The notes under the pieces were generated by a model. That model did not search any database. It was not told the origin of the DNA and saw nothing but the letters and a program-made list of their open reading frames with translations. A stretch of 20,027 nucleotides of DNA from a virus. The position numbers and the translations under genes are program-made. This document shows, in pieces, positions 976-15,737 of this stretch. Within the stretch, counting starts at the first letter, position 1. Each line of letters begins with the position of its first letter. Where the stretch lies: IMG/VR virus record IMGVR_UViG_3300036715_002971, positions 1-20,027 of that record; one strand, given 5' to 3'.

Positions 976-3258
976 ATGACAAACGGATTACCAAGCCACG
1001 GCAGCCCAGAAAATAACGTTTACGGTATAATTGGAACTGTCCTTTTTACCGATGAAGGTAAATCGTATATCAAGCAATTGAACGATACTCTGAACACAGG
1101 TTGGTCAGAAATTCCAGCTCCAGAAAGAGTTCAATTTGAGAGTCTGTCACTTACTTCCGTTTCACAATTTGGAACAAGTTCTGCTGACTCACCAAATTTG
1201 CAGTTTCGTTTGTTGAGCGGAACCGCTATCGTTAGGGTCGATGTAGTATGTAATACGGGCGGATATGTTTTTACTCCTTCACGTCCATTGTGGGTTCAAT
1301 TCGATTCAGCATCAGCCGTTACAACGACATCGGGTTCTTCACTATCCTTCGTAACATCTGAATTTGGTGGAGGCTGGTATTCAGTCCGAACAAGCTGCCA
1401 AAGTGATGAAAAAATTAATTTGACAATCACGGTCACTAAGGTTGGAGGATACGGTCCACAATTTACATCAGCCCAAGCCTACGCAAAAATCAATTCTAGC
1501 AACACCATGTTGCTTCAGGTATATAATACCAATCAATTTTCTACCGGTAAGGCTCGTTTCTATGATTCGACCAACAACTATCTTCCAGTATCAAGTAATC
1601 CAAATTACTCATATGACCTAAACGGTGATGTAGTGAATAACTACGCAAGTTTTACAGGCGGCGGCCAAATTAATTGTTTGGGTAGGTCTAATATCGGTAG
1701 CGATATTATTGGACTACTTGAAATCGTTGATTATAACGCTGACAGCCTATCAACGCCTACGGTTTATCCATCCAAGGGAAATAGCTATACAGCATCTATT
1801 TGGTCAAATGGTCTTTCTCTATTTTCAAACACCTACACCGAATTATCAGCTACATCTTCTACAACTCAGTTAAGAAATTTGAATGAAGATTTTTCTATCG
1901 TAGAAACTGTAACCGTATCTGGAGGCCCAACATCGATTTCATTCACTGCTTCAGCTACTCCAATCACAGCATCGACGGTGATTGTCATTCCTGCAAGTAG
2001 TTCAATTTCGGTGATTTCGTCTTACAATGGAACGGCTGGTATTGCGGCTGGAGCGCCTAGAGTTCTTACTGCAGCTTCAAATGTAGGAAATTGTAATTAT
2101 CAACAATTCATCTACCCAGCGTCTACGCCAACGCCTACGCCAATCCCACCGACGCCAACACCTACCCCAACTCCAATTGGTTCAACACCTACCCCAACTC
2201 CAACTCCAACTCCTACAGCTGGACCTTCCTCTACACCTACCCCAACGCCGACTCCTACAGTAGCACCAACAGCCACCCCTACTCCTACGCCTACACCTGT
2301 TCCAGCCTTTACCTTTACGTCGGCTATATTCACCGCTTGGTCATACGGAACAGCGTATAATATAAATGGAACAGGCGCTCGCATTCCAAATAATTACGCT
2401 GCGGGATTTGAACTGACGGGAACAGCTGGAGCAACAACCGTTCAGGTCGTTGTTGAAGATGACGCCGGAGGTGCGTTCTCCAACGCCGTCATTGTAAGTG
2501 TCTTGAAGAATGGTTCAATCATTCGCACCGACACCGGAACAGGCCCATACACATACAATCTAACAACATCCGAAATCACGGATGGAGCTGGAATAAACGT
2601 GGAAGCTCACTGCGGCTCACAAAACTACAGTCCAAAAGTCCGTGTAACTGCTACAAAGTCTGGTCCAGGTTTGTTTAACGATTCTTCGATGAGATTCACC
2701 GGAAAGAATTGGTCAGGAGGTGGTGTTGGATTGGATGGACAAATTACTCTCGTCGGAGTTCCAATGGGCTGCAGCATCCCTTATTCAGCTGTTGTTGATA
2801 ATACGATGGGCGGATACGCTAAAACATGGACAAGTTCTCTTCCAGCCACGGTATTACAATACAACGTAAATCTTGATGGAACATCTCCAAATGGAACTGT
2901 TCGAACCAATTTTAATCCAACAGGAACTACCATTACATTCTACGCTAGTCGCACAACAGAAGGTGAGTCTGATTTGGAAATTGATACATCGGTTATTTCC
3001 CCAGCAAATCCAGCAGCACCGACCTACACACTTACGACAGCTGAGCTCGGTTCAGGAAATACAACGGGTGGAGGAAGTAAGACAGCCGGAACCTATCCTA
3101 CCATCACCGGAACAGGCACCGGTGGAGAGACGTTTGACCATTGGGATTCCACTGGCGCAGGCGTCAACAATACAAACGACATCACGGATTCTAGCTCATC
3201 GACTACAACAGTATTCGTGGATGGTCCGAAGACTGTTACAGCGACTTTCACTCCATAA
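976..3258 (+). CDS. Mosaic virion appendage protein (A-B-PT linker-C-InlB repeat)
   Basis: A 760-residue protein whose N-terminus has the phage fibre attachment pattern: SPENNV, then a Gly, then Y-I-K, then NTGW (residues ~10-43). This pattern is common in tail-fibre and appendage proteins that attach to the particle. Domains in order: A (1-~235), shared with the next gene; B (~246-380, starting IGLLEIVDY), shared with the gene after that; a (Thr-Pro)n linker (~383-444); a unique beta-rich region C (~445-680); and a bacterial-repeat/InlB-B-like domain (~683-760) with [13 protein letters not shown] and KTVTATFTP. No signal peptide or catalytic motif is visible. Start ATG 976 follows the upstream stop by 5 bases with only a weak upstream GAG, so coupling is likely. 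Probable structural protein involved in host contact. Confidence 0.8.
2121..2306 (+). repeat. Degenerate Thr-Pro coding repeat, linker 1
   Basis: An imperfect tandem of 6-base units of the type CCNACN encodes about 62 residues of TPTPTP interrupted by short spacers (IG, AGPSS, VAP). It separates domain B from domain C of the 760-residue protein. Wobble bases vary widely, so the protein repeat is conserved more strictly than the DNA repeat. Confidence 0.9.
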
Positions 3259-3262
3259 TTAA

Positions 3263-4360
3263 ATGAGCCTAGGCCTACCAAGTTACAATGAGCCAGAAAA
3301 TAATGTTGATGGAGTTAAAGGTAATTCTATCAGCACAGTTTCTGGAAATGCTTACATAAAGCATTCTGGTGAATTTACAAATACGGGATGGGTAAAGACA
3401 CCAACAGCTCAGGTTCTTCAATTTGAAAGCGTGTCAATGACAGCAAATTCTCAGTATGGGGATTCTGCGAATGACGCACCAACATTAAAATTTGTCATTC
3501 CATCTGGAAATGCTATCGTTAGAGTTGACGTTTCAATTAGCGGTTACACCTTTGGTGTTGGTCACGAATTGGCAATGTGGGTAGATAATAGTTCGGTTGT
3601 AACTCAAAACTCTGGAAGTTTGTGTAGCTATATTACAAAGACCTTATACGCCGGAATCCACACTGTTCGGTGCACGGCTCGTAGTAGTCAGAAAATTCCA
3701 ATGACTATCACCGTTACTAAAGTTGGCGGAATGGGAGGCCAGTTTACCAATGCTCAAGCTCTTGGTAAAATTGGACCAAATGACCCATTACTGTTAAGAA
3801 TTTATAACACAAATTCTTATGGTAGAGGAAAAGCTCGTTTCTTTGACGTAACGAATCAAATTCAACCGTCAGGAAGTAATCCAAATTATAGTTTTAATCT
3901 ACAGACAAATACAACAAGCAATAGTTGTGTATTTTCAGCCGGTGGAGAAAAGGTATTTTCCGGTCTATCGCTTGTTGCGGCTCCTGCAGCGACCCCGACT
4001 CCTACTCCTACGCCGACTCCTACTGCGACACCTGTTCCAACAGCCACACCTACAGGAGCTCCAACAGCCACGCCTACTCCTACACCAACGCCAACGGCAA
4101 CGGCTACCCCTACGCCTACACCGGTGCCTACACTTTTCCACCTTTCCGTTAATGGTGGACAGCCTGGAATAGCTGGAACATCCGGTGTTGGATACTACGC
4201 GGCTGGAACGGTTGTTCCAGTAAGTGCTACGATAGCAGATGGATATACATTTTTAGCTTGGTCAGATGATGTAAGTTACTTACAAAGTGGTCAGTTCACA
4301 AATCCAAATACAATCTTAATGCCAGCTCTTGATATTGGTATCACTCCAACAACTTCATAA
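3263..4360 (+). CDS. Mosaic virion appendage protein (A-PT linker-InlB repeat)
   Basis: A 365-residue protein. Residues 1-~240 are paralogous to domain A of the upstream 760-residue protein: both have [44 protein letters not shown] and SNPNYS/F. A (Thr-Pro)n linker follows (~243-290), and then a bacterial-repeat/InlB-B-like domain (~292-365) with LSVNGGQ, GYYAAGTVV and YTFLAWSDD. It therefore lacks domains B and C of its neighbour. ATG 3263 is 4 bases after the preceding TAA, with no clear Shine-Dalgarno. Likely a virion fibre or decoration protein made with its neighbours. Confidence 0.8.
   Translation: MSLGLPSYNEPENNVDGVKGNSISTVSGNAYIKHSGEFTNTGWVKTPTAQVLQFESVSMTANSQYGDSANDAPTLKFVIPSGNAIVRVDVSISGYTFGVGHELAMWVDNSSVVTQNSGSLCSYITKTLYAGIHTVRCTARSSQKIPMTITVTKVGGMGGQFTNAQALGKIGPNDPLLLRIYNTNSYGRGKARFFDVTNQIQPSGSNPNYSFNLQTNTTSNSCVFSAGGEKVFSGLSLVAAPAATPTPTPTPTPTATPVPTATPTGAPTATPTPTPTPTATATPTPTPVPTLFHLSVNGGQPGIAGTSGVGYYAAGTVVPVSATIADGYTFLAWSDDVSYLQSGQFTNPNTILMPALDIGITPTTS
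3991..4131 (+). repeat. Degenerate Thr-Pro coding repeat, linker 2
   Basis: Tandem CCNACN-type units encode about 47 residues of TPTPTP with interspersed Ala, Val and Gly. They link domain A to the InlB-like domain of the 365-residue protein. The unit type matches the linkers in the two neighbouring genes, so inter-gene recombination is possible. Confidence 0.9.
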
Positions 4361-4361
4361 T

Positions 4362-5732
4362 ATGAACAACGAATACATTGGACTTATTGAAGTAACAGAT
4401 ATTGGAGGAGTATTCTCCACCAATCCAACAGCTCAATCAACAGCTACAGAATTGCCAATTTATTGGTTGGGTGGATTTTCTTCCACAAACGATAATTTTT
4501 CACAAAACGTAACGAGTTCAGCCGTCAAATATCTTTACAACCCAAACGATTTTTCGGTAAACGTTAATTACAAATTGACTGGAACTCCTTTGACTGATAG
4601 CACATTTTTATCAGGTTCTCTTATTTCAAATTCAGCCGGGTCAATTGGACCAAATCGGTATACACCAATTACCGCTTCGTATAACGGAGCGGCTGGTCTT
4701 GGTTTCCAAACATTGTCTATCAGTTCAAGTGTTTCTTTGGTGACATACACTCAAAACGTAATAGTTGGAGCTCCTCCTACGCCAACACCTACGCCAACTC
4801 CAACAGCTACTCCTACTCCTACGCCTACACCAACGGGAATTGCCCCTACCCCTGCACCTTCTGTATACCATCTTTCCGTCAACGGAGGACAAGCGGGAAT
4901 CATTGCTTCACCAACACAACCTGATGGTGGTGCTGGTTATTACTCTCCAGGAACAATTGTTAATGTGAGCGCAGGTATTGCTTCAGGATATGTGTTCAAC
5001 GCTTGGTCTGATGATATTGGATACCTTCTGGATGGTCAATTTGCAAATCCAAATAGAATTTTGATGCCATCTACGAATATCGGAATAACCCCGACAGCTG
5101 TTCTAATTCCTGTTGATTTTCAATTTACATACATTTCGGCTACCGGAAACACTTACTTAGGTGGCAACAACAATCTATCTATTACAGTTCAACCAAATGC
5201 ATCGGCCGACGTAGGATTGTTAATTGACTTAACCGCTGATAGCGTTATTTCTCCAAGTCATTCTGTAACAATTATCCTAAAGGATGTTGTATCAAATTCT
5301 ACAATTTGGTCTACGACTATTACAACTGCTATTTTGGTAACTAACAGTATTAATTTACCGACAGCAAATAACAAGTATTCTCTCACAATTAGCGCTGCTC
5401 ACAGTTTACCAAATACTGTATTCGCTTCTGTTTCGAGAACGGGTGGCGGAAATTTTGTATATGGTTCCGCTCAATGTGTGATAGATTTAACAAATGCTGC
5501 AAGCTGCAATGTCAGCGGAATACCAACGAATTCAACGTATCATTATAATATCAGAAATGCTACATACACTTCTCACAACTTTGATTCCTACACAATTGTA
5601 GATTCTACCGGAACAAAATCAATGACAAGTGTAGGCGACGGTGTAGGAGCAGCACCCGCTTACAGTATCGGTTATATTGAAATTGTTCCATTGTCGGTAG
5701 GATTCTCCCACCCAACACTATCACCATCGTAA
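4362..5732 (+). CDS. Mosaic virion appendage protein (B-PT linker-InlB repeat-unique C-terminus)
   Basis: A 456-residue protein. An in-frame TTG lies upstream at 4329, but ATG 4362, one base after the previous TAA, is the better start: it begins MNNEYIGLIEV, aligning with domain B of the 760-residue protein (IGLLEIVDY). Domain B (~1-137) is followed by a (Thr-Pro)n linker (~137-167) and an InlB-like domain (~168-247) nearly matching the previous gene's (LSVNGGQ, GYYSPGTIV, FNAWSDD, ILMP, IGITPT). A unique beta-rich region (~248-456) completes it. It lacks the SPEN..NTGW attachment domain A, so it may need a partner for attachment, perhaps the preceding protein. No enzymatic motif is seen. Confidence 0.8.
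   Translation: MNNEYIGLIEVTDIGGVFSTNPTAQSTATELPIYWLGGFSSTNDNFSQNVTSSAVKYLYNPNDFSVNVNYKLTGTPLTDSTFLSGSLISNSAGSIGPNRYTPITASYNGAAGLGFQTLSISSSVSLVTYTQNVIVGAPPTPTPTPTPTATPTPTPTPTGIAPTPAPSVYHLSVNGGQAGIIASPTQPDGGAGYYSPGTIVNVSAGIASGYVFNAWSDDIGYLLDGQFANPNRILMPSTNIGITPTAVLIPVDFQFTYISATGNTYLGGNNNLSITVQPNASADVGLLIDLTADSVISPSHSVTIILKDVVSNSTIWSTTITTAILVTNSINLPTANNKYSLTISAAHSLPNTVFASVSRTGGGNFVYGSAQCVIDLTNAASCNVSGIPTNSTYHYNIRNATYTSHNFDSYTIVDSTGTKSMTSVGDGVGAAPAYSIGYIEIVPLSVGFSHPTLSPS
4771..4860 (+). repeat. Degenerate Thr-Pro coding repeat, linker 3
   Basis: A short tandem of CCNACN-type units encodes about 30 residues, mainly PTPTPTP with a few Ala, Gly and Ile. It connects domain B to the InlB-like domain and is the shortest of the three linkers. 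Confidence 0.9.
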
Positions 5733-5794: not shown

Positions 5795-7060
5795 ATGGGA
5801 ATGGAGATTACACCAAACGATAAAATATTCGTCCAAATTGCCTCATATCGAGACCCTGAACTTGTTCCAACCATCCGAGACTGTATTGCTAAAGCCAAAT
5901 ACCCAGAGAATCTAACTTTTGGCCTCTGTTGGCAACATGATGAAACTGAGACGTTGGGAGAATTTGCCACCGACACACGCTTTCGTGTAGAAGACCATCA
6001 CTACTCTAAGAGTCAGGGTTTAGGTTGGGCCCGTAGTATTACAAACAAACTTTATGCTGGGGAGAAATATACTCTACAATTAGACAGTCACCACAGATTT
6101 GTCAAAGATTGGGATATGATACTTCTCGAAGATTATTCTCAGGCCCTATTGGTTTCAAAAAAACCAATTATCACAACATATTGCACCCCATTTGACACAA
6201 AAGAACCGATAGAAAAAGCTGGGCCTGTTCCTTGTTTGATGGCACAGTATGAATTCAGCAGCGATAAACTTTTGATGAGCAGACCAAGCTATATCACGGA
6301 TTACAAGACCAGAAATACCGTTATTCGTGCCCGCACCCTTTCTGGACATTTCTATTTCGTTTCTGGAGATTTTATTAAAGAAGTTCCATATGACCCAGAC
6401 ATTTATTTTGGTGGTTATACAGAAGAAACAACTATGAGTGTTCGAGCTTACACGAGTGGATATGATTTTTTTAGTCCATATAGAATGTTGATGTGGCACG
6501 AATACACAAGAAACTACCGTGTCAAACATTGGGACGACCACGGTATCAAAAGTGAAACACAAAAAACAAGCGGAGAAAGAGACATATTCGCTCGGCACAA
6601 AACTCGTCAAATTTTTGGACAAGACGATTTTAAAATCGATTTAGGAAATTTTGGGTTGGGAATCGTGAGAACCCTACACGATTATGAGGTTTATGGGGGA
6701 TTTAACTTTTCAAAGTGCCTCATTCAAGACTATACCTTGTTAGTAAAAGAACCACCCAATCCGATTGATTGGGAGGAACAATTCAAGAAAATCAAAAAGA
6801 AAATGACCGTCTCTTGGGACATCGAGCATTTCAAAGCGGAAGATGAAGGTGGTTTTGATTTTATCACATTTGGTGTATTAGACAAGTTCTTCACAAACAT
6901 CGTAAGGTTTGATTTTAAACCACACACCCATCCAAACATATTCAATTACAGCCAGAATTCTATTGAGGTAGAACTGATGGGAGATCATCCAGCCGAATCT
7001 TTAGTAATGTATGCTTTTAAGAAAGGTAACTGGTGTAAACGATACGAAAAGAAATTATGA
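5795..7060 (+). CDS. Glycosyltransferase, GlcNAc-transferase family (GT60/Skp1-transferase-like)
   Basis: A 421-residue protein starting at ATG 5795 (an upstream in-frame TTG at 5783 and ATG 5801 are alternatives). The N-terminus, IFVQIASYRDPELVPTI followed by AKAKYPENLTFGLCWQHD, is characteristic of the PF11397 'glycosyltransferase (GlcNAc)' family, which includes the eukaryotic Skp1 hydroxyproline GlcNAc-transferase. The acidic metal/nucleotide-sugar site is LQLDSHHRF (D97-S-H99). A later conserved stretch runs FGGYTEE then WHEY. It has no signal peptide or membrane segment, so a cytoplasmic enzyme is expected. It follows the Thr-Pro-linker proteins and precedes further glycan genes, so a protein acceptor is plausible though unproven. 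No clear Shine-Dalgarno precedes it. It ends in an ATGA overlap with the next gene. Confidence 0.85.
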   Translation: MGMEITPNDKIFVQIASYRDPELVPTIRDCIAKAKYPENLTFGLCWQHDETETLGEFATDTRFRVEDHHYSKSQGLGWARSITNKLYAGEKYTLQLDSHHRFVKDWDMILLEDYSQALLVSKKPIITTYCTPFDTKEPIEKAGPVPCLMAQYEFSSDKLLMSRPSYITDYKTRNTVIRARTLSGHFYFVSGDFIKEVPYDPDIYFGGYTEETTMSVRAYTSGYDFFSPYRMLMWHEYTRNYRVKHWDDHGIKSETQKTSGERDIFARHKTRQIFGQDDFKIDLGNFGLGIVRTLHDYEVYGGFNFSKCLIQDYTLLVKEPPNPIDWEEQFKKIKKKMTVSWDIEHFKAEDEGGFDFITFGVLDKFFTNIVRFDFKPHTHPNIFNYSQNSIEVELMGDHPAESLVMYAFKKGNWCKRYEKKL

Positions 7061-7662
7061 AAACAGTTTATAAACTATATGTGAAAGAATCTCCGCTTGG
7101 ACTGAAATATTTGGGTGTCACCAAAAACGATCCGATAGAGTATCTTGGTAGTGGATTGTTGTGGCAGAGACATTTAAAAAAACACAAACTAAAATCGAAA
7201 AATATAAAAACTAAAGTTTTGCTTGAAACCGAAAACAAGAATGAGTTGATAAAAAAAGGAATCTATTTTAGCAACTTATTTAATGTGGTGGAAAGTGATG
7301 AATGGGCAAACCTCAAAGTTGAGTCTGGTGAAGGCGGAAGCTTACCTTGGTCAGAAGAAAAAAAACGTCAATTTGGTGAAAAAAGAAAAGGAAAAAAGAA
7401 TCCATTTTATAGAGGAAAACTAAGCGAAGAACACATGGCTGTAATAAAAGATAGATGTGGAAAGAAAAACCCCGTGGCTCGATCTGTAGAACAAATTGAC
7501 ATCAACAGCGGAAAAGTCATTAAAATATTTGAAACTATTAGAGAAGCCTCAAAATCAATAAAAGTTTTACATTGTAGAGTGTGGGCTGTCTGCAACGGAA
7601 ATTTATCAAGAGAAGACAACTATCTAACTTCCGGTGGATATGTTTGGAGATATACAAAATGA
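7057..7662 (+). CDS. Free-standing homing endonuclease-like protein with NUMOD3 and NUMOD1-type modules
   Basis: A 201-residue basic protein. The N-terminal ~90 residues (YKLYVK, GLKYLGVT, YLGSG, WANLK) match a phage module usually annotated as a putative homing endonuclease; I cannot assign its nuclease fold with certainty. Residues ~110-130 (KGKKNPFYRGKLSEEH) are a NUMOD3-type DNA-binding motif. Residues ~143-201, with VEQID, then IFETIREASKSI and ending GGYVWRY, resemble NUMOD1. Its start overlaps the upstream stop (ATGA at 7057), and its stop overlaps the next start (ATGA at 7659). It is likely an intruder lodged between two glycosyltransferase genes without disrupting translation. Confidence 0.8.
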   Translation: MKTVYKLYVKESPLGLKYLGVTKNDPIEYLGSGLLWQRHLKKHKLKSKNIKTKVLLETENKNELIKKGIYFSNLFNVVESDEWANLKVESGEGGSLPWSEEKKRQFGEKRKGKKNPFYRGKLSEEHMAVIKDRCGKKNPVARSVEQIDINSGKVIKIFETIREASKSIKVLHCRVWAVCNGNLSREDNYLTSGGYVWRYTK

Positions 7663-11455: not shown

Positions 11456-11599
11456 ATGGGAAGAAAAAAATTATACAAAACGGAAGAGGAACAAAAAAAT
11501 GCAAGAAGCAAGCGAAATAGACGATATTATGACAAGCACAAAGACGAACTCAACAGAGAAGCCATGCAAAGATACTGGAAAAAGATTGAGAAGAAATAA
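11456..11599 (+). CDS. Small basic helical protein
   Basis: A 47-residue protein starting at ATG 11456: MGRKKLYKTEEEQ followed by an Arg/Lys-rich helix with RRYYDKHKDELN and QRYWKK. Small proteins with this MGRxKxY...RYYxKxK pattern occur in viral genomes, but no function is established that I can name. The charge suggests nucleic-acid binding. It overlaps the downstream GIY-YIG frame by 101 bases in the +1 register. Its amino-acid pattern looks selected here, whereas the overlapping frame does not. No Shine-Dalgarno precedes the ATG, and the TATTTATA motif ends 3 bases before it. Confidence 0.55.
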   Translation: MGRKKLYKTEEEQKNARSKRNRRYYDKHKDELNREAMQRYWKKIEKK

Positions 11600-12338
11600 T
11601 GTCGGTGTTGGCGTGGTATATCGGGCAATATGTTCTGTGAATGGCAAAGTTTATATCGGCGTTACGTCTCAAAAATTGAGTGAACGAGTCCGAGACCATG
11701 TAAAATTATCTAAGAGAAGTAATCCAAAATATCTGTTTAACCGATCTATCAAAAAATATGGTCAAGAAAATTTTGTATTTTCTGAGATTGATACGTTTGA
11801 CACAATAGAGGAAAGAAATAAGAAGGAAGTAAAACACATCAAAGAACACAATTCATTTCATCTAACGGGCCGCGGATACAATATGACACTTGGCGGTGAT
11901 GGAAGTAGTGGGCATGTAAAATCTCAAGAAGCCATCCAAAAAATAAAAGACGCTAGAGCCAAACAAATGTTTAGTCAAGAGACGAGAAATTTGTGGTCAA
12001 AAAATAGAAGAGGAAAAAAGAGATCAGAAGAAACAAAAACAAAAATATCTAAATCAAAAATTGGTCATGTTGTTACAAATGAAACTCGAGAAAAATTGAG
12101 AGTAGCAAATTTAGGAAAAATAGCATCCAAAGAAACTCGATACAAAACATCGATGAGCATGATCGGAAAGAATAGAAAAATAATCTCAATTGAGGACATG
12201 AACACAATTGTTAAGTTGTATAAAACACTTGGATTACACAAAGTTCGGTTAGAATTGAAAAAATTGGGTATATTTATTAGTTCGGGAAGAATAAAACGAA
12301 ATTTACAAAACATCGGTATATACAGAACTAAAACGTGA
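11499..12338 (+). CDS. GIY-YIG homing endonuclease with NUMOD3-type repeats
   Basis: A free-standing endonuclease, 279 residues if read from ATG 11499, which has GAGGA eight bases upstream. The catalytic domain starts at ~38: GVVY (38-41) and VYIG (51-54) are the two halves of GIY-YIG, followed by the R63/R65 helix, catalytic E110 in KKEVKHI, and N128 in GYNMTLGGDG. Basic NUMOD3-like segments follow (RRGKKRSEETKTKISKSK, NETREKLR), with a possible helix-turn-helix near the C-terminus. The first ~34 residues lie in the alternative frame of the small basic gene and look non-conserved, so TTG 11586, GTG 11613 or a frameshifted fusion are alternatives. Its stop overlaps the next GTG. Confidence 0.8.
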   Translation: MQEASEIDDIMTSTKTNSTEKPCKDTGKRLRRNNVGVGVVYRAICSVNGKVYIGVTSQKLSERVRDHVKLSKRSNPKYLFNRSIKKYGQENFVFSEIDTFDTIEERNKKEVKHIKEHNSFHLTGRGYNMTLGGDGSSGHVKSQEAIQKIKDARAKQMFSQETRNLWSKNRRGKKRSEETKTKISKSKIGHVVTNETREKLRVANLGKIASKETRYKTSMSMIGKNRKIISIEDMNTIVKLYKTLGLHKVRLELKKLGIFISSGRIKRNLQNIGIYRTKT

Positions 12339-14037: not shown

Positions 14038-14886
14038 ATGTGGATGACATCATTCACATTTGATAGAGAGAAACTTTTTCCATATATACTGGGATTTTCA
14101 GCGTTGTTTGTTGCAGGAATCGCTGCCTTCTTTTCCGTGATGGGAATCGGAATGTTATTCAGTGGAGCAACATTTTCGGCTATTTTGATGGCGTCGTCTT
14201 TAGAGGTTGGAAAATTAACAGCAACAACCTTCTTGTATCGATATTGGAATAAGACCAAAAAATTTCTAAAGGTTTATTTAATTCTCGCCATCATAATGTT
14301 GATGGGAATCACTTCTCTTGGTATTTTTGGTTGGTTGAGCTCGGCATATCAGAGTTCAGCTTTGAACTATGAGATAAATCAACAGCAAATATCGGTAATG
14401 GTAGAACAGAGAGCACAGGCTCAGACTCAGGTTGTTTTATCTAAACAAAGAATCGATGATTTGATGGAGAGCCGTAGGACGCAAGAAAAGTCTCTGAATA
14501 GTTCGTTGACGAATGAATCTGTTATACAGAGCCCAGAACTTCTTCGAAAACTACAACTTCAAAATAACCAGCTGATGAGAGCGTCGGATGTTGACATCAG
14601 TAATGAAAAAGTTCGTTATACAAATTACATCGGAACTGTTTCAGAAATCGATACTAAAATTTCAGATGCTAAACTTGACGGCATCAAGTCCAAGGACGTT
14701 ATCACCTTCAAGTTTGTAGCCGACGCTATTGGCTTTGACCTAACAAAAACAGTCAAATGGTTTATTTTAGCAATCATTCTTGTATTCGACCCTTTAGCAA
14801 TCAGTCTTATCTTAGCTTACAACGTTGCTATATTTAAAGAACCATCGGTTGTTTCTACGGAAACAGAAGATGAAAAAAAAAAGTAA
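14038..14886 (+). CDS. Multi-pass membrane protein with periplasmic or cytoplasmic coiled coil
   Basis: A 282-residue protein from ATG 14038 (a second ATG is at 14044). Predicted membrane segments: ~13-37, ~39-55, ~76-100 and ~238-262. A hydrophilic helical region (~105-215) between segments 3 and 4 is rich in Gln, Ser and Lys and looks like a coiled coil. GKLTATTFLYRYWNK after segment 2 is a conserved-looking basic loop. Similar membrane proteins occur in myoviruses without a known function as far as I recall. The frame ends in an A10 run directly before TAA 14884-14886, and coding-like sequence continues in the -1 frame, so a longer product may be made. Upstream is a 36-base spacer with no firm promoter. 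Confidence 0.75.
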   Translation: MWMTSFTFDREKLFPYILGFSALFVAGIAAFFSVMGIGMLFSGATFSAILMASSLEVGKLTATTFLYRYWNKTKKFLKVYLILAIIMLMGITSLGIFGWLSSAYQSSALNYEINQQQISVMVEQRAQAQTQVVLSKQRIDDLMESRRTQEKSLNSSLTNESVIQSPELLRKLQLQNNQLMRASDVDISNEKVRYTNYIGTVSEIDTKISDAKLDGIKSKDVITFKFVADAIGFDLTKTVKWFILAIILVFDPLAISLILAYNVAIFKEPSVVSTETEDEKKK

Positions 14887-14946
14887 TTGATGTTGTGGAA
14901 TTCGTTTCTACACCGGAACCAATTCCACTCAAAGAAAAACTTCCGG
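14877..14946 (+). promoter_or_regulatory. Candidate programmed -1 ribosomal frameshift signal with H-type pseudoknot
   Basis: In the zero frame the heptamer A-AAA-AAG (14877-14883) is the same slippery sequence used in E. coli dnaX, and a stop TAA follows at once. After an 11-base spacer, GTGGAATT (14895-14902) pairs perfectly with AATTCCAC (14921-14928). The loop CCGGAA (14913-14918) pairs with TTCCGG (14941-14946), making a classical H-type pseudoknot. The -1 frame opens just after TGA 14871-14873, so the usable window coincides with the A run. Confidence 0.6.
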
Positions 14947-15047
14947 AACCAACGATTACGCCGACGCCAACTCCTATTCCTTTACAGGTTCCACCCAACG
15001 ACCACGGGCTGAGAGATCACGAAATCGCCCATTATCCGCGTGGATAA
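14883..15047 (+). CDS. Pro-rich C-terminal extension of the membrane protein in the -1 frame
   Basis: A slip by -1 on the A10 run (14873-14882) continues translation as V-I-D-V-V-E-F-V for 54 residues to TAA 15045-15047. Twelve of the 54 residues are proline, including [13 protein letters not shown], and it ends DHEIAHYPRG. The composition is protein-like and echoes the Thr-Pro linkers of the appendage genes. The only conventional start in this frame is GTG 14895, without a Shine-Dalgarno, so independent translation is less likely. An 11-A run instead of 10 would give one continuous frame, so a homopolymer sequencing error or a recent indel is the main alternative. Confidence 0.55.
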   Translation, partial: VIDVVEFVSTPEPIPLKEKLPEPTITPTPTPIPLQVPPNDHGLRDHEIAHYPRG

Positions 15048-15116: not shown

Positions 15117-15737
15117 ATGAAGTTTAAAATCGTCACTAATAAAGACCAACTCCACCGCCCAACATCTCCGGTTTCCTCCGTTGAAGAAGGAACGGAAATC
15201 GCAAATAAACTGATTGAAGCTCTTGATGAAATCAAATATGGTATCGGTTTATCCGCTAACCAAATTGGTATTCAAAAAAGTGTCTCCATCATTCGTATCA
15301 AGAAAGATGAGCCACCTCTCATTCTAATGAATCCTCAAATTACCGAGTATAGCCCTGAAAAGGTTATTTATTTAGAAGGGTGTTTGAGTATTCCGGGAAA
15401 AGCAGTAACAACATTTCGTTCAGCTAAGATTGTTGTGACTACCCTAAATCACGCTAATCCTCTTCCCTTTGGAGCAGATGTTATGCCTGTTACGAAGGAC
15501 TCAATTAACACCGATGATGGATTGGTTAAAGCAGTTTGTGTTCAACACGAGATTGACCACTTGAACGGAAGATTGATGATTGACCCGGGTATTCGTATCA
15601 TTCGGCCAGCTCAGATAGCACAAGTAAAACACGGACGTAATGATAAGGTGATGATTAGTAAAGGCGAAGATACAAAGTATTTAAAATACAAACACGCTCT
15701 TGAGCTTGTTCAGAATGAAGGATGGAAAATACTATGA
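15117..15737 (+). CDS. def: Peptide deformylase
   Basis: A 206-residue metalloenzyme that removes the formyl group from N-terminal formyl-methionine. All three motifs are present: GLSANQIG (44-51, motif 1), EGCLS (87-91, motif 2, metal ligand C89), and QHEIDH (143-148, motif 3, ligands H144 and H148, catalytic E145). The distance from C89 to H144 is 13 residues longer than between Cys90 and His132 in E. coli, owing to a segment around PLPFGADVMPVTKDSINTDDG. The C-terminal ~50 residues extend beyond the catalytic core. Deformylases are known in cyanophages and other marine phages. ATG 15117 has no Shine-Dalgarno. The stop overlaps the next gene's ATG. Confidence 0.95.
   Translation: MKFKIVTNKDQLHRPTSPVSSVEEGTEIANKLIEALDEIKYGIGLSANQIGIQKSVSIIRIKKDEPPLILMNPQITEYSPEKVIYLEGCLSIPGKAVTTFRSAKIVVTTLNHANPLPFGADVMPVTKDSINTDDGLVKAVCVQHEIDHLNGRLMIDPGIRIIRPAQIAQVKHGRNDKVMISKGEDTKYLKYKHALELVQNEGWKIL

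Follow-up and report, generated by a model that had tools for sequence, protein, structure and literature searches.

Examination of a 20,027-nt stretch of DNA (positions 1 to 20,027 of the IMG/VR virus record IMGVR_UViG_3300036715_002971; hereafter the window) revealed a gene coding for a putative membrane protein, with an acetyltransferase gene and a peptide deformylase gene as neighbours. Four transmembrane helices are predicted from hydropathy and charge (residues about 12-34, 37-55, 75-102 and 237-264). The loop that joins the second to the third is positively charged, and the third and fourth are separated by a long helical hairpin. The AlphaFold2 model of the protein is all helical (pLDDT 80.8). 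These predictions suggest an inner-membrane protein of N-in/C-in topology whose coiled coil is periplasmic and whose tail is cytoplasmic. Searches of Pfam, NCBIfam and PHROGs returned no confident family (a weak Tetraspanin match, E=0.002, was below cut-off), Foldseek against the PDB found nothing below E=0.001 and helical-bundle resemblances only, and Rfam gave chance matches only. Elsewhere in the window, positions 976-5732 are occupied by neighbouring genes that carry PT/PTPTP repeats as well as divergent InlB B-repeat domains (Flg_new_2); the N-termini of the first two ORFs resemble each other. Homing-endonuclease-like genes at 7057-7662 (NUMOD1-like) and 11499-12338 (GIY-YIG with NUMOD3) sit among genes for a glycosyltransferase, a UDP-galactopyranose mutase and a tRNA nucleotidyltransferase.

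The coordinates of the features at and around the end of the membrane protein gene are collected in the table. In its own frame the gene ends in GAA AAA AAA AAG TAA, the run of ten A (A10) being followed by a single G and then by the stop codon. This is the sole run of nine or more A or T in the window, and in those window genes that were examined, Lys-Lys-Lys is elsewhere encoded by a mix of AAA and AAG codons. The first-pass annotation had placed an A-AAA-AAG heptamer directly before the stop and a -1 frame opening at the upstream TGA and encoding 54 Pro-rich residues; both observations were confirmed. Since this TGA blocks the -1 frame upstream, a shift into that frame must fall inside the A run. 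Inspection by eye of positions 14850-14876 (tgtttctacggaaacagaagatgaaaa) for a Shine-Dalgarno-like stimulator found no AGGAG-like stretch.

Table. Features at the 3' end of the membrane protein gene and downstream of it (window coordinates).
Feature	Position	Strand	Remarks
0-frame ORF, 282 aa	14038..14886	+	C-terminus of short isoform, EDEKKK
TGA closing the -1 frame	14871..14873	+	just 5' of the A run
A10 slippage run	14873..14882	+	same length in L001 and L002
A AAA AAG heptamer	14877..14883	+	abuts the stop, in phase; ribosomal slippery site if translation slips
0-frame TAA stop	14884..14886	+	straight after the run and G 14883; kept in L001 and L002
-1 frame tail, Pro-rich, 54 codons and stop	14883..15047	+	codons 14883-15044, TAA 15045-15047
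8-bp stem	14895..14928	+	14895-14902/14921-14928; not conserved in L001 or L002
Second pseudoknot stem, 6 bp	14913..14946	+	14913-14918/14941-14946
Conserved end of -1 tail, NDHGLRDHEIAHYPRG and stop	14997..15047	+	third-position-biased differences against L001 and L002
Peptide deformylase, downstream neighbour	15117..15737	+	similar gene start downstream in L001, L002 and L012

A protein search of IMG/VR identified two close relatives, L001 and L002, which are 73% and 68% identical to the window protein and form with it a clade of three members, each assembled separately. The gene end GAA-A10-G-TAA is exactly retained in both, and the -1 frame continues for 45 codons in L001 and 63 in L002. 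Thus a run of at least nine A or T on the coding strand is present at the frame junction, as A10, in all three sequences, and both run length and ORF arrangement (A10-G-TAA followed by a -1 tail) are conserved among non-identical homologues. The -1 tails of the relatives end in DNHGLRDHEI[YF]H[SA]PTR, the counterpart in the window being NDHGLRDHEIAHYPRG; the motif common to the three is NHGLRDHEI.H.P. A DNA pattern built on DHGLRDHEI had no match because the relatives have NHGL, and the corrected pattern matched L001 and L002 only. A tblastn search of the tail against phage records gave no match, and no relatives were found in genome contigs.

Comparison of the three tails shows that the -1 frame is under coding constraint. 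Differences over the last 16 codons and the stop, counted at first, second and third codon positions, were 6/3/12 between the window and L001, 8/3/9 between the window and L002 and 2/1/5 between L001 and L002; as they fall mostly at third positions, the -1 tail is read as protein. The conserved portion comprises the last ~16 residues, while the middle of the tail shows no conservation among the three sequences. The earlier suggestion of isoforms differing by a PTPTP tail is therefore upheld as regards a constrained tail in the -1 frame, but the PTPTP stretch is not part of what is conserved.

Downstream of the run, the 8-bp stem and the 6-bp pairing of its loop with 14941-14946 were found exactly where the first-pass annotation had drawn them. 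An equally stable H-type pseudoknot occurred in none of 1500 dinucleotide shuffles and none of 1000 codon shuffles of the downstream 90 nt, as scored with a simplified stacking score, and the pseudoknot is thus statistically real in its own sequence. The 8-bp stem alone is less exceptional (p=0.016 in the shuffle test), the spacer between heptamer and stem is 11 nt, longer than typical, and the minimum free energy fold of the window contains a nested hairpin in competition with the second stem. The structure comparison covered the window, L001, L002, L075, L153 and L077. No comparable pseudoknot or significant, well-placed hairpin was detected in L001, L002, L075 or L153, and a conserved pseudoknot was ruled out by its absence from the two closest relatives; at suitable spacing, a conserved downstream structure was not found, the pseudoknot of the window being absent from L001 and L002. 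The comparison with homologues proposed at first pass accordingly recovers the A10 run and the stop but not the pseudoknot. Since the run is kept where the pseudoknot is missing, the conserved element is A10, and among the sequences compared the RNA structure is an individual feature and the A run the shared one.

The wider family was collected by IMG/VR profile searches, two scans of which returned 79 and 80 loci, and by three single-protein searches, which added a few more. Most of the 139 distinct homologous ORFs carry a Pro/Glu/Lys-rich tail in frame, closed by short ends particular to each lineage, among them FFKQMFKL, RPSWLQ, NHFSF and RGMFSF. On a tree of 98 rows, the window groups with L001 and L002 in a single clade (SH-aLRT 95), and the sister of this clade, L012, is fused. 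Beyond this clade, a split that puts the tail in the -1 frame behind an A run occurs in four lineages, L075 (A9), L150 (A9), L153 (A10) and L077/L078 (A7), which implies at least five origins on the tree. The -1 tail ends of L075, L077 and L153 match motifs that relatives carry in frame (FFKKYFKLDA, FFRGYFKSY and GLFSF). Of the 7 split genes, 6 have a run of nine or more A, compared with 3 of the 91 other genes (Fisher p=5e-7, related rows not being fully independent). In the conserved protein core no such run was seen against 8.5 expected from codon shuffling, and in the tails 10 were seen against 12.6 expected; they are not in excess there because the tail is A-rich family-wide. The fused tail without a split is likely the ancestral state of the split form. 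Fused relatives lacking any run or structure had been named beforehand as evidence against recoding, and most of the family is of this kind, but recoding is not refuted here, since the tree places the fused state as likely ancestral.

Several individual loci deserve mention. The loci at which the tail passes into the -1 frame at an A10 or A9 run are 2927-3640 in L153, 4727 in L150 and 3808 in L075; these three are single contigs, in which the homopolymer may have been miscalled or a frameshift may have arisen recently by mutation. In L150 the gene downstream has a start similar to that of peptide deformylase (by eye). At 3765-3850 of L077, an A7 run and GTTTAG are followed by an 11-bp hairpin ~5 nt past the run (p=0.007), with the canonical FFRGYFKSY tail in the -1 frame; L078 is 100% identical across 6.7 kb in a second metagenome. 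L077 is the family's best candidate for structure-aided ribosomal frameshifting. Runs of nine A also lie within in-frame tails, at 3902 in L012, 3800 in L043 and 4023 and 4448 in L005, where slippage could yield truncated isoforms. In the distant relative L142 an ORF of its own encodes the tail, its start overlapping the preceding stop as ATGA at 4666-4669, which suggests a reinitiation version of the same split. L017 and L018 were rejected as split genes, their genes ending simply without a terminal motif, and L130 and L139 were rejected on inspection.

We consider it very likely that the locus is programmed to make two isoforms by slippage on A10, whichever machine slips. Standard decoding would halt at TAA 14884 and yield the 282-aa protein ending in KKK. 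Slippage on the run, by the polymerase adding one A to the mRNA or by the ribosome stepping back one nucleotide, would produce the junction EKKKV... and add the 54-residue Pro-rich, cytoplasmic tail with its conserved end. Both isoforms may be needed at a set ratio, for instance as tailless and tailed subunits of one oligomer. Because the protein is identical whether the transcript gains an A or the ribosome slips by -1, the sequence does not separate polymerase from ribosome. A conserved A10 run alone is sufficient for RNA polymerase slippage, and the polymerase is favoured in the window clade because of the A10 run, its conserved length and the lack of a conserved structure or Shine-Dalgarno-like element; the pseudoknot would then be a lineage-specific booster.

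Classical ribosomal -1 frameshifting on A AAA AAG, stimulated by a pseudoknot as in E. coli dnaX, differs from polymerase slippage only over which machine slips, the two-isoform outcome being common to both, and we regard it as possible but doubtful. The heptamer lies in the right phase beside the stop, the window pseudoknot outscored every shuffle, L077 bears its hairpin behind A7 only, and ribosomes are known to slide on iterated AAA (PMC4363877); indeed the A AAA AAG and pseudoknot of the window and the A7 and hairpin of L077 suit ribosomal frameshifting equally. However, four of the compared homologues have no comparable structure, the spacer is long, the upstream Shine-Dalgarno-like element is absent and A10 exceeds what the heptamer needs. 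Of the classical frameshift site drawn at first pass, programmed access to a conserved -1 tail behind A10-G-TAA is borne out, also by the convergent cases, whereas the pseudoknot does not stand as a general stimulator.

A frameshift mutation, a phase-variable homopolymer or an assembly error, the true or recent genome carrying A11 and one fused frame, is improbable. Although indels are frequent in A runs, most relatives are fused and some split cases are known from single contigs, an identical A10 recurs in three separately assembled sequences 68-73% identical, with the constrained tail intact, and L077 and L078 agree between metagenomes. Translation of the tail as a separate small protein, with ribosomes reinitiating past the TAA (at GTG 14895 for the window), is more improbable still: GTG or TTG codons follow the stop soon after in the window, L001 and L002, and the overlap in L142 would suit it, but there is no Shine-Dalgarno sequence, neither position nor codon of the start is conserved, most homologues have the tail fused, and the conservation of A10 would be left without a cause.

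Slippage on A10 as proposed here has counterparts in known systems. Conservation of run length between homologues is the published criterion for functional transcriptional slippage (PMC1088944). In Citrobacter rodentium, transcriptional slippage of ~20% on the A11 run of tssM1 yields two forms of an inner-membrane protein, both of which are needed (PMC4256274). As in the window gene, a poly-A run lies shortly before a premature stop of an inner-membrane protein, an extra A gives a C-terminal extension and no stimulatory RNA structure is needed. In contrast to the window gene, tssM1 codes for an unrelated bacterial type VI secretion protein and its run, about 28 nt before the stop, was shown to slip by experiment. 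Homologues of dnaX use either route, ribosomal on A AAA AAG in E. coli and transcriptional on A9 in Thermus, as cited in two papers (PMC3711429, PMC1088944); they share the heptamer, and among them, too, one recoding event relies on the run alone in some versions and is assisted by structure in others, although dnaX recoding gives a shorter product whereas here a tail is added. The phage tail assembly chaperone G/GT (PMC5009743) is similarly a tailed-phage gene with a -1 C-terminal extension, but its product is a soluble chaperone and its neighbour the tape measure gene, whereas the window gene encodes a four-helix membrane protein and lies next to peptide deformylase.

The locus thus very likely adds a new phage gene family to those with conserved recoding of a known type. 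To our knowledge, the recoding cases described in tailed phages mostly concern tail chaperones and capsid or tail decorations. Here, split tails arise recurrently at A runs, beside fused relatives, in a membrane protein found across large phages. The chances are about even that lineages of this family have repeatedly moved a fixed tail to the -1 frame beyond an A run and so brought its ratio under control, through polymerase slippage or structure-aided ribosomal frameshifting depending on the lineage, under convergent selection for mixed oligomers. Such split proteins will be truncated by gene callers. The recurrence together with the fused relatives makes the choice between polymerase and ribosome slippage directly testable, and it would single out the tail as an element sensitive to dosage within an uncharacterised membrane complex of the phage.
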